Position numbers and translations under genes: made by a program | Notes under the pieces: generated by a model | What the model saw: only the letters and a program-made list of their open reading frames with translations | The model's database searches: none | Told to the model about the DNA's origin: nothing | Part shown: in pieces, positions 3,984 through 35,443 of the stretch | How positions within the stretch are numbered: position 1 is the first letter of the stretch | How the letters are laid out: each line of letters begins with the position of its first letter | From: a virus | DNA: 35,690 nucleotides | Reading direction: 5' to 3' (one strand) | Virus record (IMG/VR): IMGVR_UViG_3300044655_001244 | Span: 1-35,690 of that record

Positions 3984-6599
3984 TTAGTCTTTGTAATAAC
4001 GATTTTTAATTTTTTGGGCTTCTTTTTCAGGATCAATACCTTGCATTAATACTGGTGCTTCTTTTTGACGCTGTAAAAGTTGTTGGCGGATTTGATCTTG
4101 AGACATGTTTGGCTCTTCTGCGCTGGCATCACTTGCTCCAAAGTTTGCAACAAAATCTAAAACCTCTTCTCTAATTTCAGGATTTGCGGCAGTAATTGCG
4201 GAAAGTCTGTTTAGTTGTTTTGGTAATTCTTTTGGTGTTGCTTGGGCGGTAACAGCGACCCAATTGATGAATTTAGGGTTTGCCATTAATTTTGATGATA
4301 TAGCCCTTCCAATTCCAACACTAGCTGCTAAACCTAATGGCCCAGTCCCATAACCAACAGTTCCAAGTCCTACCATTTGCAACATTTTATTTGATTTTCC
4401 AGCTTGTTCAGTGTTTTTTGTCAACTCTACAACTTTATTTAAGCGATTAAAAGCAGTAACTTGTTCAGGCGTAAAAATTATTTTCTCTGTGCCGTTCTTT
4501 TTAAGAACAGAATATTCAGCCATAAACTTTTGAGGGTTAAATAAATCGGCTTCTGCACCTTGCGCTCCTTTACGAGCTAAACCCATGTCTCTAACAATAG
4601 AAGCTCTTACATATTCTTGCTGAATAGGTTTAAGACTTGACATTAAATTTTTAGCAATTGTTGCGTCTTCTTTTAGAGGAGAAATTGCTTTTTTATATGC
4701 TTTGGTGGCTGTTTTTGCTTTGATAATTGGTTCAATAATATTTTCAATAAATTTAGTTTTTCTTTCGAAGGCTGCATTTGCTTTATCAAAAGCTTGCAAA
4801 CCTTTAGTTCCGCCATAAAGAGCCACAGAATCTTTCATGTCTTCGCTTAAGCCGCCATAAATCTTTTTAAGAGCTAATCTTTCATCTCCTAATAAAGAAG
4901 GTGAATGTACTTTTGCCCCAATAGTAGTTCTAAATGATTTTAACCTTGGATAAGAAAGGTTGCCAGACTCGTCAATAATGTTTTTATATCGAGAAATAAC
5001 TCTAGCAGTATCTCCACTTCCAACAGCCGCAATATCTTGAACTTGAGAATCATTAATAATTTTGCTAATGTTTCTTGTTGGGACTGTTACTTCACCAGTT
5101 GCTAAAACAGATTGTAATTGGTTTGGTGATAAATATTTTTCGTAATTAGAAATTAACCCTAATTGCTTAGAAATTTGTTTATTAACATTATTTAAATTTT
5201 TAGCATCTTCCGCAGCATTTGATAAAAATTCAGTATTGCCGGGTTTTAAATTTTTAGCTTCATTTGATATTTGTTTATTAACATTATCTAAACTGCGAGC
5301 ATCATCAGCGGCTTTTGTTAAAAATTCAGAAGATGAAGCCCTAGCTCTATTTCGCCAAAAACCTAATTTCTGACTAGCATCTTCGTTAATTAATGCGGCA
5401 ATTTTAGAATTACCTTTGACGCTGCTTTTTAATTCACTACCAAGATCAAGTAATGATTTATATTCACTAGAATATTTTGGCAAACTACCTACAAATGCGG
5501 CTGCTTTTGAATTGCCTCTTACTGACCTTTCTAATTCAGATTGTAAATCTTTTAATTTTACCCATTCATCAATTGCAGATGAAAGTTTGCCTGAAGTCAT
5601 CTCTTGAGTTTCGTTTAGAATTTGTTTGTCTAAGTCATCATATAAATTAGAAACTCTTTGACCTGCAAATTTTTCAAACTCTTCTGCGCCCTCTTTTATC
5701 ATTTTTCCAGTTCTAGCGTATGTTTTAGGTTTTACACTAACAACATTTTGAATCTGCCCAGAAATATCATTCACTTGCTTTTGTAAAGCTTCTGTAATTG
5801 GTTTGCCAGCAATAGGAATGTCTTTTATGAAGTTTTGTAAGCCAGCGGATTTAGAAACATCGGCAAGAGTTGGATCAATACCTAAATCTTGAAATGTTTT
5901 TACTGCTTTTGGATCAATCCCTGTTACTTTTTGCAAGAGTTTTTTAGGGACTTGCGAAATTGCACCAATGGCATTTTGAGCGGCAGGAATTGCTTGTTGA
6001 ACAGCTCCACCGACCACACCGCCAGCAACAGCGCCCTTGGCGACATCTTCTAAAGTTTGCGGAATATTTGTTAAATCTTCTGTTTCACCTAGAGCGCTCG
6101 CACCACCTAGAGCAGCACCGCCTTTTACAGCTGTCCCAAAACCTTGACCAACTAACCCAGACACTCCTAATGCTTTTCCAGCAATACCAACATCGGAAAA
6201 TACTTGCCCAGCAAAAGAAGTAAGCGGTCTATCTTGTCTAGCTTTTTCAAGTTTAACTCTTTCAATATCTCTTGCTTCTCTGTATAAATCACCAATATCA
6301 ATATCTTTAGTTGCTGCGCCACCAAATAATTTAGCGACACTTGCGGCAATGCCAGCTTTGATTTCATCGCCAAAACCAAGAGGATTTGTTGCAGTTGTAA
6401 AGGCAGCTTCGCCAATTGACATAGGTTTTGGCGCAAATTTCTTTTCTAAAAACGTAACAATTTCTTCATCAGAATAACCTTGATTTCTAGCAGTATTAAT
6501 TTGTTGAGAATAACCTTCCTTTTTACTCAAAAAATCGTTTATTTCTGAATCAGAATAGCCTTGCTCTCTTGCTTGTTGTATTTTTGAAGAATCTATCAT
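3984..6599 (-). CDS. Large internal virion / DNA-ejection protein
   Basis: 871 aa, the largest protein here. Residues 1-55 hold two tandem copies of a short helical repeat ([19 protein letters not shown] and [19 protein letters not shown]). Residues about 60-210 are Gly/Ala-rich and weakly hydrophobic, suited to membrane insertion. The remainder is long and helical with internal duplication (two similar blocks reading [10 protein letters not shown] and [10 protein letters not shown], and two N-NVNKQIS blocks). Its size, position after the other ejection genes and composition fit the pore-forming internal proteins that podoviruses eject into the envelope. No lysozyme or transglycosylase active site was recognised. 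Its ATG overlaps the stop of the preceding gene. Confidence 0.65.
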
Positions 6600-8029
6600 T
6601 TAAAAATATCCTCCAATGATGGTCTGCTAGAATTAGGATTTACAGCTCCATATTGTTTGGCTTGGTCATTATGTAAGTTTTGAGCATAAGTACTGGCTTG
6701 TTCTGGGGTAGAAAATTTACCTAGATGTTTACCTGTTTTTTTATACTGAGCAATTGCTTCTTGATTAGACATAATTCTTCCATCATCACTAACTGTCGGG
6801 ATCAGGGTTTCTTTTCCATCTATATTGACTCCAATTGATCTAACCGTGCTTATTGAGCCATCTTGATTTTTAACAACTGGACGATTGTTTAAATTTATAT
6901 TTCCACGTTCAATTATACCAGAATCTACTGTTATTCCTTGTTTTTGTCTTTTTAAGCCAATTCTCATAACGTCCTGAAGGTCTTTTGCCGCTTTGTCAAA
7001 TTCTGCTTCACTTGTTGCAATATCCATTGCGGAAATTGCATTTGTTGCTTTTTGACCCTCAACTTCTGTAATAGATCCGCCACCTTTAAGGGTTTCGTAA
7101 GCTTCAAGAAATTGCTTACCTTTTAACTGATTATATTTAGCCATAAATCCAGCAGCATCCGTACCAGGTACGGTCATTTCTTTAGTAAATGGTATAGAAC
7201 CCAAGAAAGGATTTTTCACGCCGACCATTGTTGATTTACCTTCATGGTTAATTACATCATCAATTAATTTAATAGCTTGGTTAGTTTGAGATTCAATTTT
7301 AGGTAAATTTACAATTCTTTTACCCCTATCTTCAGCAATTACTTTTTGTTGATCTTTAAATGTTCCAAGAGTTATTCCTTGCTCTCTTGCCAACGCTCTT
7401 TCTTGTTCAACATCTAAAAATTCGCCTCTTGATTTTGCAATATCAATACTGCCTTTAACCATATCTTGCTTAACTTTCTGAATATCAACGCCATATTTAG
7501 CTTGCTGGAAGCCTTCAGTTTTAATTTGTGCAGCTTGATATTGTTCTTTTAAATCTTGCTCTCTTCCTTTTAGACGAGTTTTTAAAGCATTAAATTCCGC
7601 TATAGCTGGATCGTTTCTTTCTGATGGAAAATTTGCTGACAAAGGCAATTCTCTTCCTGTTGCTTCAAAATAATCATTGTGCATTTGCTCCCATCTTTTT
7701 TGATTGCGAGCGTATTGCGGAAGAGTATCAAAAGCATCTAAAACTCTAGCTCCTTGAACGTCATTATAATCTTGTTGCTTTCTTATTCCTTCCGCACGAG
7801 CAGGGTTTAACCCAGCAAGTCTTTGAAGGGCGTTTTGATCGCCTATTGAAGCTGTTTGTGATAAAATATTTTCAGCTTGAGTCTGTGCAAATTTTTGTTT
7901 GTTAATATCCATCTCTTGCTGAGCAGCAAGCAAGGTTAATTGATTAGCTTTTGCTTTTTGGGCAAATTCATAACTCTTAAGGATGTTTCCGACGTAATCT
8001 GGTACTTGTTGCTGAATTAATTCTGGCAT
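6596..8029 (-). CDS. Internal virion / DNA-ejection protein with C-terminal conserved phage domain
   Basis: 477 aa. Residues 1-250 are mostly charged helix (Gln/Lys/Glu-rich). Residues about 245-370 include [19 protein letters not shown] followed by [10 protein letters not shown], a block I recognise from phage internal virion proteins. The last 100 residues (start [20 protein letters not shown], then [15 protein letters not shown], then [11 protein letters not shown] and [10 protein letters not shown]) form a separate module that recurs at the end of unrelated large phage structural proteins. Its function is unknown to me. The gene sits between the 244-aa and 871-aa ejection-type genes, and its stop overlaps the start of the latter. 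Confidence 0.65.
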
Positions 8030-21329: not shown

Positions 21330-22073
21330 ATGAACTATAACCAATTTTTAAACGAAATTTTAGACAAGCCAGCGAAAGCGGCGCAATGCTACCAGCTTTT
21401 CCATAATTATTCACTTGGCAACCAGTGGCTGGCAAGCGTTCAGATGAAAGAATTAGAGCCAATCAACACTTATAAAGGCTGGCAAGGCTTAGGGCGGCAA
21501 GTAAAAAAAGGAGCGAAAGCAATCGAACTAATGCTCCCAGTATCTTTAAAAGACAAAGAAGACGAGAAAAAAATCAAAACTTTTTACATCAAGAAAAAAA
21601 ATTGGTTCAAGTTATCAGACACAAGCGGCGCGGATTATAAGCAAGAATTACCGGCAAATTTTGACTTGGAAAAGGCTTTGGCGGCTTTGGAAATTAAGGT
21701 GGAAAAATTCGCAATGGTTAACGGCAATTGCCAAGGGTACGCGAAACCTAACAAAAATTTAATAGCAATAAACCCGTTAGCCAGTGATTTTTTCAAAACC
21801 TCAATTCATGAAATGGCGCATTGCTTGCTCCATAAAAACGAAGATGGCGAAACTTTAAATCACGGGGAAAATTTGCTCCCTCGCTCGATTAAAGAATTAG
21901 AAGCGGAAGGCACGGCATACATTGTAAAAACAAGCTTGGGAATTTTTGAAGGCTTAGAATTTTCAAGAAATTATATCAAAGGCTGGCTGGCTGGTGATGA
22001 AATAAAAGAAAACAATTTTAAAAGAATTTTAGGCGCGGCGAGCAAGATTTTAAAAGCGGGAACTCAAGAATAA
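21330..22073 (+). CDS. ArdC-like antirestriction protein (ssDNA-binding plus zinc metallopeptidase)
   Basis: 247 aa. Residues about 1-95 match the N-terminal ssDNA-binding domain of the ArdC family (NTYKGWQGLGRQVKKGAKAI). Residues 160-164 form HEMAH, the zinc-binding HExxH, with a likely third ligand Glu near 191-193 (ELEAEGTAYIV). ArdC proteins protect incoming DNA from host restriction. Being among the first early genes fits a role in the first minutes after entry. All metal ligands appear intact. It is followed by a terminator-like hairpin. Confidence 0.8.
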   Translation: MNYNQFLNEILDKPAKAAQCYQLFHNYSLGNQWLASVQMKELEPINTYKGWQGLGRQVKKGAKAIELMLPVSLKDKEDEKKIKTFYIKKKNWFKLSDTSGADYKQELPANFDLEKALAALEIKVEKFAMVNGNCQGYAKPNKNLIAINPLASDFFKTSIHEMAHCLLHKNEDGETLNHGENLLPRSIKELEAEGTAYIVKTSLGIFEGLEFSRNYIKGWLAGDEIKENNFKRILGAASKILKAGTQE

Positions 22074-34286: not shown

Positions 34287-34847
34287 ATGAACTTTGAAGA
34301 AAAATCTAAAACTTGTCTTGAATCGTATTCAAGATTGAAAAATCTAAAACTTGTTGAAAAAGAAACTTTAATCCCTTGGCAAACAGTGTATTGGTATTTA
34401 AAAAAAGCTGGTATTCAAGTTACGGGAGATAAGGCTCTTTATGGCAGCTCGAAAGATAAGTTTGCTCATATTGGAGAGCAGTTTTTTAGTAGAGTTATTC
34501 CGTATGCCGAAAATCAAAATCTTATTTCATTTCAACCAAAGATAGATTTTATCGTAAAGGGCTATGGGGTGGAAATAAAATCAGCAAAATTCACCTCTAC
34601 TGGCAACAATAAAAGGTGGGCTTTTTCTCTTAAAAAACAGAATAAGGTAGCGGATTTTTTTATTCTAATGGCTTTCAACGATGCGGGAAATGAGATATTG
34701 CATTATTTTTTAATACCAAATGAACTATTAAGAAAGGAAATGCAGACAATCTCAGTTTCGCAAAATATTAATCATACAAAATGGAAAGATTTTTTGATTT
34801 CAGAAAAAGAGTTACAGGAATTTTTTAAAATGATAGAGTCAAAATAA
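34287..34847 (+). CDS. PD-(D/E)XK-type endonuclease-like protein with N-terminal HTH
   Basis: 186 aa. Residues about 22-45 (VEKETLIPWQTVYWYLKKAG) read as a helix-turn-helix. The nuclease core follows: GEQFF (Glu64), PKIDFIV (Asp87) and VEIKSAK (Glu96, Lys98), then WAFSLKKQNKVADFFILMAF, a motif seen in small restriction-fold nucleases. It could be a resolvase, a freestanding homing-type nuclease or a host-DNA nuclease. It stands just before two tRNA genes and lacks an SD. Confidence 0.6.
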   Translation: MNFEEKSKTCLESYSRLKNLKLVEKETLIPWQTVYWYLKKAGIQVTGDKALYGSSKDKFAHIGEQFFSRVIPYAENQNLISFQPKIDFIVKGYGVEIKSAKFTSTGNNKRWAFSLKKQNKVADFFILMAFNDAGNEILHYFLIPNELLRKEMQTISVSQNINHTKWKDFLISEKELQEFFKMIESK

Positions 34848-34850
34848 CAA

Positions 34851-34925
34851 ATAGCTTTAGTGTCAACAGTAGCACGCCGATCTCCAAAATCGGAAGTCTT
34901 GGGGCAGAACCAAGAGGCTATGCCA
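34851..34925 (+). tRNA. tRNA-Trp (anticodon CCA) with unusual D and T loops
   Basis: Full cloverleaf: acceptor ATAGCTT/AGGCTAT (seven pairs, one G-U), D stem GTGT/GCAC, anticodon stem CCGAT/ATCGG with loop CTCCAAA (CCA at 34-36), T stem CTTGG/CCAAG, then G73 and encoded CCA. A1-U72, the anticodon loop and G73 all agree with bacterial tRNA-Trp identity. Yet the D loop CAACAGTA lacks GG and the T loop GGCAGAA lacks TTC, so the normal elbow contacts cannot form. It lies three bases before tRNA-Tyr. Confidence 0.75.
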
Positions 34926-34928
34926 ATA

Positions 34929-35014
34929 GGAAGAGTAGCAAAGTGGTTAAATGCGGCAGACTGTAAATCTGCTATCGAAAGGTTTCGCTGGTTCAAATCC
35001 AGCCTCTTCCACCA
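34929..35014 (+). tRNA. tRNA-Tyr (anticodon GTA)
   Basis: Class-II cloverleaf of 86 bases: acceptor GGAAGAG/CTCTTCC, D arm with GTGGTTAA, anticodon stem GCAGA/TCTGC with loop CTGTAAA, long variable arm CGAAA/TTTCG, T arm GCTGG/CCAGC with loop TTCAAAT, A73 and encoded CCA. All conserved positions look normal. Confidence 0.95.
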
Positions 35015-35026
35015 AATTAATGAAAT

Positions 35027-35443
35027 ATGGATTATCAACAAAAGCAAATAAGTGAAATCTGCAATAAATTGAGCAAAATGTCCATTGAGGATAAAAAAAA
35101 TAAATTTAAACACTTGGCAAATTCTAGCAATAAAACCGATTTAGGAACTATATTTAAAGCTATCACAACCCATATAAGCCATTTAGGGAAATATGATAAG
35201 TTTAGTAGACCTGATTTAATTATTTCCTCGAGGCAAGTGCGTTTTGATATACCGATGGTTAATGAAGGTTTAAATGTAAAGTATAAGTCAAATTATCCGC
35301 ATTCTTACCGTGCAAATTGGATTTATGAAGCTTGTTTAGACATATACTTAGGGCTTCATGAATTTGGTTTCATGAATTATAGAAACGAAACAATTTATAA
35401 TTTACTAAGAGAGCGTCCATCTCAACAAAGAGTGATTAAATAA
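35027..35443 (+). CDS. Hypothetical protein downstream of the tRNAs
   Basis: 138 aa. Helical N-terminus (QISEICNKLSKMSIEDKKNK), then DLIISSRQVRFDIPMVNEGL and an aromatic C-terminal half (RANWIYEACLDIYLGLHEFG). No family recognised. Starts 12 bases after the tRNA-Tyr CCA and has no clear SD. Confidence 0.5.
   Translation: MDYQQKQISEICNKLSKMSIEDKKNKFKHLANSSNKTDLGTIFKAITTHISHLGKYDKFSRPDLIISSRQVRFDIPMVNEGLNVKYKSNYPHSYRANWIYEACLDIYLGLHEFGFMNYRNETIYNLLRERPSQQRVIK

Follow-up and report, generated by a model that had tools for sequence, protein, structure and literature searches.

The window, that is, the whole stretch of 35,690 bases analyzed here, is a virus record encoding terminase, portal, head, Sak4-like and SSB-like proteins. 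It carries two adjacent tRNA genes, the first of which has an unusual elbow. Their features, with the source of each assignment, are as follows:

34851..34925, plus strand: complete tRNA-Trp(CCA) gene with an alternative elbow and encoded CCA (sequence reading and cloverleaf scanner)
34851..34857, plus strand: 5' strand of the acceptor stem, ATAGCTT, with A1-U72 (sequence reading)
34860..34875, plus strand: D arm GTGT-CAACAGTA-GCAC, with A18 at 34868 and G19 at 34869 (reading and alignment)
34877..34893, plus strand: anticodon arm CCGAT-CTCCAAA-ATCGG, with the anticodon CCA at 34884-34886 (sequence reading)
34898..34914, plus strand: T arm CTTGG-GGCAGAA-CCAAG, with G54 at 34903, G55 at 34904, C56 at 34905, A57 at 34906 and G58 at 34907 (reading and alignment)
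34915..34925, plus strand: 3' strand of the acceptor stem, AGGCTAT, discriminator G73 and encoded CCA (sequence reading)
34929..35014, plus strand: canonical tRNA-Tyr(GUA) gene with T loop TTCAAAT, directly 3' of the tRNA-Trp gene (ARAGORN, Rfam)

Read from end to end, the tRNA-Trp gene is ATAGCTT-TA-GTGT-CAACAGTA-GCAC-G-CCGAT-CTCCAAA-ATCGG-AAGT-CTTGG-GGCAGAA-CCAAG-AGGCTAT-G-CCA (75 bases). All four stems have the standard length: the acceptor stem is paired at 7/7 positions, with one U.G at 6-67, the D stem at 4/4, also with one U.G, and the anticodon and T stems at 5/5 each. The anticodon loop CTCCAAA is normal (U33, CCA anticodon, purine at position 37), and A1-U72, G73 and the encoded CCA fit the Trp isotype. 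The cloverleaf, the G73-CCA end and the CCA anticodon thus bear out the assignment of this element to tRNA-Trp in a preliminary description of the window. That description had also stated that the D loop has no GG. Indeed, GG is absent from CAACAGTA, but the loop is better described as carrying a specific A18-G19 instead of the canonical G18-G19. The T loop is GGCAGAA, not U54-U55-C56-R57-A58. G19 and C56 are kept, and with them the 19-56 Watson-Crick pair. As had been anticipated, standard tRNA finders missed the gene: ARAGORN called the tRNA-Tyr at 34929 and not the tRNA-Trp at 34851-34925, and an Rfam RF00005 search of the window did not list the latter even at E<=10. Our cloverleaf scanner gave it a score of 21.7, and its lowest-energy fold is the cloverleaf (-19.9 kcal/mol). 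Searches with the proteins encoded on either side (34287-34847 and 35027-35443) yielded no functional clue. Elsewhere in the window, an open reading frame at 21330-22073 on the plus strand has weak ArdC N-terminal (anti-restriction) and zincin-like matches.

We searched viral contigs for the pattern CTCCAAA-14 bases-GGCAGAA-12 bases-GCCA and recovered four contigs. L002 is a close relative of the window, and its tRNA-Trp is 97.9% identical over 96 bp, whereas the gene immediately 5' of the tRNA-Trp was unmatched in a blastn comparison of the two. Because the next tRNA differs in L002 (Met-like, where the window has tRNA-Tyr), and because the element is missing at the corresponding junction of L007, the tRNA-Trp seems to travel as a small cassette. 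L003/L005 (one sequence) and L004 bear little sequence resemblance to the window, and their stems still pair. A looser Trp pattern returned 52 stretches, five of which (L002, L003, L004, L005 and L042) pair at 15 to 17 of the 17 acceptor, anticodon and T stem positions, all five with the T loop GGCAGAA. The remaining stretches from the strict and relaxed patterns pair at no more than 11 of the 17 positions, many of them are protein-coding, and we rejected them. Such a sharp split should be expected if a real family is mixed with chance matches. In the first members to be aligned, the D loops read CAAC-AG-TA, AATT-AG-CA, AAAA-AG-AAT and AAAT-AG-TAT, and C56 is kept. Against known phages, blastn with the elements of the window and of L003/L005 gave short partial matches only, one of which led to the tRNA-Trp of Sinorhizobium phage phiM12 considered below.

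Applied to phage genomes, the cloverleaf scanner, which allows any loops, added tRNAs of other isotypes: Gly and Glu in L004, Val and His in Streptomyces phage Coruscant, and Met/Ile in G004. The last has the D loop AAA-AT-TA and the T loop GGAGGTA, so that U19-A56 replaces G19-C56. Two D-arm-based scans brought the number of distinct genes with GGNRG loops to about 70. One of the D-arm patterns, CATAAAANTAATG...GGNRGTA, leaves positions 19 and 56 unconstrained, and in every tRNA accepted from it, G19 occurs together with C56 or U19 together with A56. The final set comprises 119 distinct A18/G55 tRNAs, the window gene and 118 more, from phages with unrelated genomes. The odd loops noted at the outset were thus confirmed, but the framing as one odd tRNA-Trp was too narrow: the class is widespread in phages and mostly overlooked.

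Since the covariance model R1 also scores canonical cellular tRNA-Gly highly (about 51 bits), we rejected it as a class detector and judged membership from the loops. Matches in Lachnospiraceae (L271/L277) were discarded as chance matches in coding sequence. Because its T loop is canonical, the tRNA-Trp of Sinorhizobium phage phiM12 (L056, 2494-2568) was not accepted as a member. This gene is unannotated; its D loop is TAATGTA, with a single G, its T loop is TTCAAGT, and it may be an intermediate.

The folding energy of the window tRNA-Trp is unexceptional among shuffles (z -1.43), as a chance cloverleaf in AT-rich phage DNA would predict, although folding energy is uninformative as a test. 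The idea of a chance cloverleaf is refuted by the stem-pairing split, by the recurrence in phages and by a shuffled-sequence control, and we regard it as practically ruled out. Indeed, 3.07 Mb of first-order shuffled viral sequence gave one scanner match at a score of at least 18.5, none at 21 or above and no alternative-elbow match; permuted T-loop words likewise gave no alternative-elbow match, and the tRNA-Trp is near-identical in the diverged relative L002.

In the class, the canonical G18/U55 is replaced by A18/G55, with the 19-56 Watson-Crick pair retained, as G-C or as U-A with both sides changed. To quantify this coupling, we took 643 tRNAs with T or G at position 55 from 668 distinct phage cloverleaves, the others having different bases at 55/56 or no D stem found. 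They divide into 505 GG/U55, 120 noGG/G55, 6 GG/G55 and 12 noGG/U55, so that mixed types account for only 18/643. Fisher's test gave p = 1e-107; with each combination of loops and anticodon counted once, p was 2e-79. Both values are inflated by the relatedness of the sequences, which are not independent events. In an alignment of 39 diverse members, A18 is invariant and positions 19 and 56 pair in 39/39, as G-C in 36 and as U-A in 3. In the wider set of 119, there are 110 G19/C56, 5 U19/A56, 1 U19/C56 and 3 unassigned. In the stems of the 39 members, 98.4% of cells are paired and 372 are double-sided changes, compared to 104 in shuffles. Since the scanner selects for stem pairing and ignores 19-56, the 19-56 pair is cleaner evidence than the stems.

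Changes at positions 54 and 58 are likewise coordinated. Among the 119 tRNAs, 54/58 is G/G in 69, U/A in 24, A/U in 18, C/A in 3 and A/A in 3, which gives a class T loop of N54-G55-C56-R57-N58 in place of the canonical U54-U55-C56-R57-A58. The GGC and AGC subtypes lose U54 and A58 as well. The U/A (TGC) subtype keeps both and differs from canonical tRNAs at positions 18 and 55, and the 18-55 swap is thus the core of the class.

Between them, the 119 genes have 35 different anticodons and represent all 20 amino acids, and their identity elements follow the isotype. The discriminator is U73 in 19/22 tRNA-Gly, C73 in 19/21 tRNA-His and A73 in 23/23 tRNA-Val, -Ile, -Met and -Lys; it is G73 in 7/7 tRNA-Trp, as in 15/15 canonical tRNA-Trp, and base 73 is G in tRNA-Asp and tRNA-Asn too. 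A G at position -1 is found in 15/21 alternative tRNA-His compared to 2/98 other alternative tRNAs, and CCA is encoded in 90/119 alternative compared to 175/505 canonical phage tRNAs. The loops depart from the tRNA consensus and many of the genes are missed by standard finders, as could be expected of decaying or non-translational remnants, or of tRNA-like RNAs with another role. Such an origin is improbable, however, given the covarying stems, the fitting discriminators, the G-1 of tRNA-His, the excess of encoded CCA and the single coordinated loop change in all isotypes. The suggestion that the window gene might be beginning to decay is likewise contradicted, since many unrelated phages and isoacceptors share the same loop combination with paired stems, matching discriminators and a covarying 19-56 pair, and since neither stem mismatches nor random loop changes accumulate in relatives (39-sequence alignment).

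The share of alternative tRNAs varies between phages. The window phage has one, beside its canonical tRNA-Tyr, while they make up 22/38 tRNA calls in the part of the 203-kb phage G410 that was read, 11/34 in G411 and about 7/27 in G412. Cultured phages of Streptomyces and Pelagibacter carry members as well. Among the roughly 44 tRNAs of Coruscant, no tRNA-Val was found other than the alternative one. This gene is flanked by tRNA-Glu and tRNA-Leu, a place taken by a canonical tRNA-Val in relatives such as Anedea. The alternative tRNA-His is present in Coruscant and in 8/10 related Streptomyces phages, most of which also have a canonical tRNA-His by ARAGORN; in Warpy, ARAGORN found no other tRNA-His. 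GenBank records label the alternative gene tRNA-His in some cases and leave it blank in others. We rejected the notion that one anticodon is never represented by both an alternative and a canonical tRNA in the same phage, because the scanner had missed adjoining canonical tRNA-His genes that ARAGORN finds. Indeed, canonical and alternative tRNAs coexist in most class-bearing phages, and several carry both types of tRNA-His. Pelagibacter phage Mosig EXVC030M carries a single alternative tRNA (L300:957-1030), a tRNA-Gly whose anticodon, ACC, is unusual, besides three canonical tRNAs, and this gene sits in an annotated 31-aa open reading frame, hypothetical protein Mosig_000011.

For 36/119 members, compared to 5 expected, the nearest canonical relative by stem sequence belongs to the same isotype, which suggests that existing tRNAs were converted repeatedly. 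Many others resemble alternative tRNAs of another isotype more closely, and these resemblances point to the re-use of scaffolds across isotypes. A homologous pair is provided by the tRNA-His of E. coli phage SUSP2 (AAATGGATA / TTCGATT) and that of L164 (AAAAGTA / GGCGGTA), which have the acceptor and D stems in common. ARAGORN finds 25 tRNAs in SUSP2, and since every one parsed by the scanner is canonical, large tRNA arrays do not imply the class. Among cells, the Trp pattern gave 17 matches in 84,980 bacterial and archaeal genomes, none of which folds as a tRNA, and a CATAAAA-type D-arm-based pattern gave none in 398 genomes of one phylum. For these two patterns, the cellular searches support, without proving, a restriction to phages.

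Other RNAs were seen in these phages. L160 carries a Pistol self-cleaving ribozyme (7491-7563, minus strand; Rfam, 51.5 bits) in a phage tRNA array, adjoining alternative tRNAs, and L161 a tmRNA gene (6086-6523, plus strand; Rfam, 68.5 bits) in an array with a U19-A56 alternative tRNA-Gly. In L060 (LR745206, a 635-kb uncultured phage; 1015-1252 and 2306-2392) and in the Lak phage L299 (110-185), tRNAs have GG D loops and T loops ATCGTTA, ATCAAAA, ATCGATA or ATCGTGC. Here, U54 is replaced by A, with U58 in ATCGTTA and ATCGTGC, and U55 is kept, making this another elbow variant, of giant phages. Finally, ARAGORN called tRNAs with the anticodons CUA (Pyl) and UCA (SeC) in L074 (9603-9677), L134 and L230; these are candidate suppressors, possibly involved in recoding.

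Several known systems resemble the class in part. The staphylococcal non-proteogenic tRNA-Gly for cell-wall synthesis departs from GG and T-Psi-C, but it is a single isoacceptor with a cell-wall role, whereas the class spans all 20 isotypes and belongs to phages. Suppressor tRNAs selected in vivo from randomized D and T loops in the Steinberg laboratory reportedly showed that non-canonical elbow combinations can work; those are artificial, whereas the class is natural. Canonical phage tRNAs such as those of SUSP2 share with it the cloverleaf, the place in tRNA arrays, the isotypes and the discriminators, but have G18-G19 and a T loop TTCRANN in all parsed cases, with no A18/G55. Like the class, tRNAPyl is a natural tRNA without G18-G19 and without U54-Psi55-C56, but it has a five- or four-base D loop, an extended anticodon stem and no G19-C56, whereas the class has normal arms and keeps 19-56 (PMC7609411). 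The window tRNA-Trp itself has an 8-base D loop, a 5-bp anticodon stem and a CCA anticodon, in contrast to the short D loop, extended anticodon stem and CUA of tRNAPyl. Type II and III mitochondrial tRNAs also have non-conserved D and T loop motifs, but they lose the D-T interaction, which the class replaces with another conserved combination (PMC7609411). A search of the open-access literature, which does not extend to most subscription journals, gave no earlier report of A18-G55 or of GGCAGAA-like T loops in phage tRNAs.

In the canonical elbow, residue 18 inserts between T-loop bases four and five and contacts Psi55, and 19-56 is the exposed outer pair, gripped by the ribosome, RNase P and others (PMC4810234). 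Judging from the covariation alone, A18 would contact G55 in place of G18-Psi55, 54-58 would form a replacement non-Watson-Crick pair, and 19-56 would still cap the elbow and keep the L shape. With the outer pair kept and the inner contacts replaced, processing and ribosome binding should persist, and the window tRNA-Trp would be processed, charged by TrpRS and used to read UGG codons of phage mRNA. We consider it probable that the window element is a functional phage tRNA-Trp of the alternative-elbow class, whatever the reason for its selection.

Why the swap was selected is the least certain step. The class loses the bases acted on by TruB, TrmH and, in most subtypes, TrmA, which suggests that viruses have evolved tRNAs unreadable to host enzymes that recognize the elbow. 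With G18 and U55 gone, and U54 and A58 as well in the GGC and AGC subtypes, the tRNA would be hidden from these enzymes or from T-loop nucleases. Escape from host enzymes or nucleases reading G18/U54-U55 is to us the likeliest, still putative, advantage. In its defense form, which we put forward tentatively, the alternative elbow would make phage tRNAs resistant to host nucleases or toxins acting on the canonical T loop or elbow by cutting or gripping it, and translation would continue while host tRNAs are destroyed. This is in line with the finding of the class in phages and not among the cellular genomes searched, and with the many isoacceptor kinds swapped in one phage, as a general elbow threat predicts. 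The swap also removes the T54-Psi55 step, the site at which a natural tRNase, the CDI toxin CdiA-CT(E479), cuts the T loop between T and Psi (PMC9086364). In earlier work, tRNAs encoded by phages counteracted tRNA-cutting defenses (PMC11555353) or, with changes in the anticodon loop, evaded anticodon nucleases (PMC10264068). The latter follow the same proposed logic, a phage tRNA altered where host nucleases read it, but there the anticodon loop is altered, whereas in the class that loop is canonical and the elbow altered (PMC10264068). However, an elbow-directed antiphage nuclease remains putative, Cas12a3 contacts the T-arm backbone and not these bases (PMC12851939), and canonical tRNAs persist in the same phages.

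Independence from modification is a somewhat doubtful alternative: the elbow would fold stably without Psi55, m5U54 and Gm18 during a short infection, and bulk tRNAs need not wait for host enzymes. Pseudouridylation is impossible at G55, A18 does not serve as a substrate for Gm18 formation, and the loss of U54 and A58 in the GGC and AGC subtypes fits as well. Psi55, m5U54 and Gm18 are elbow-stabilizing modifications (PMC7912444). However, the TGC subtype retains U54 and A58, most phage tRNAs in the same genomes are canonical, and speed alone fails to explain a partial change.

Returning to escape from elbow-reading enzymes and nucleases, we hypothesize, with somewhat less than even confidence, that a second elbow code (A18.G55; G54.G58, A54.U58 or U54.A58; G19-C56 or U19-A56) evolved, spread and diversified in phages across all isoacceptors. 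It would be used in translation and be invisible to host enzymes and defense nucleases reading G18/U54-Psi55, and some phages would have moved most of their tRNAs to it.

To our knowledge, G18-Psi55 and U54-A58 pass for near-universal features, mitochondria and a few special tRNAs excepted, and they underlie both the tRNA finders and the notion that Psi55/m5U54 are universal. The existence of the class means that the tRNA complement of phages is being underestimated: the apparently missing tRNA-Val of Coruscant is present, and a tRNA of Mosig is annotated as a protein. A natural, coordinated replacement across all 20 isotypes is direct covariation evidence for an alternative elbow, and it provides tRNA scaffolds of natural origin with which host elbow modification should be bypassed. 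Overall, these data point to an elbow-directed selective force in the conflict between phages and their hosts.
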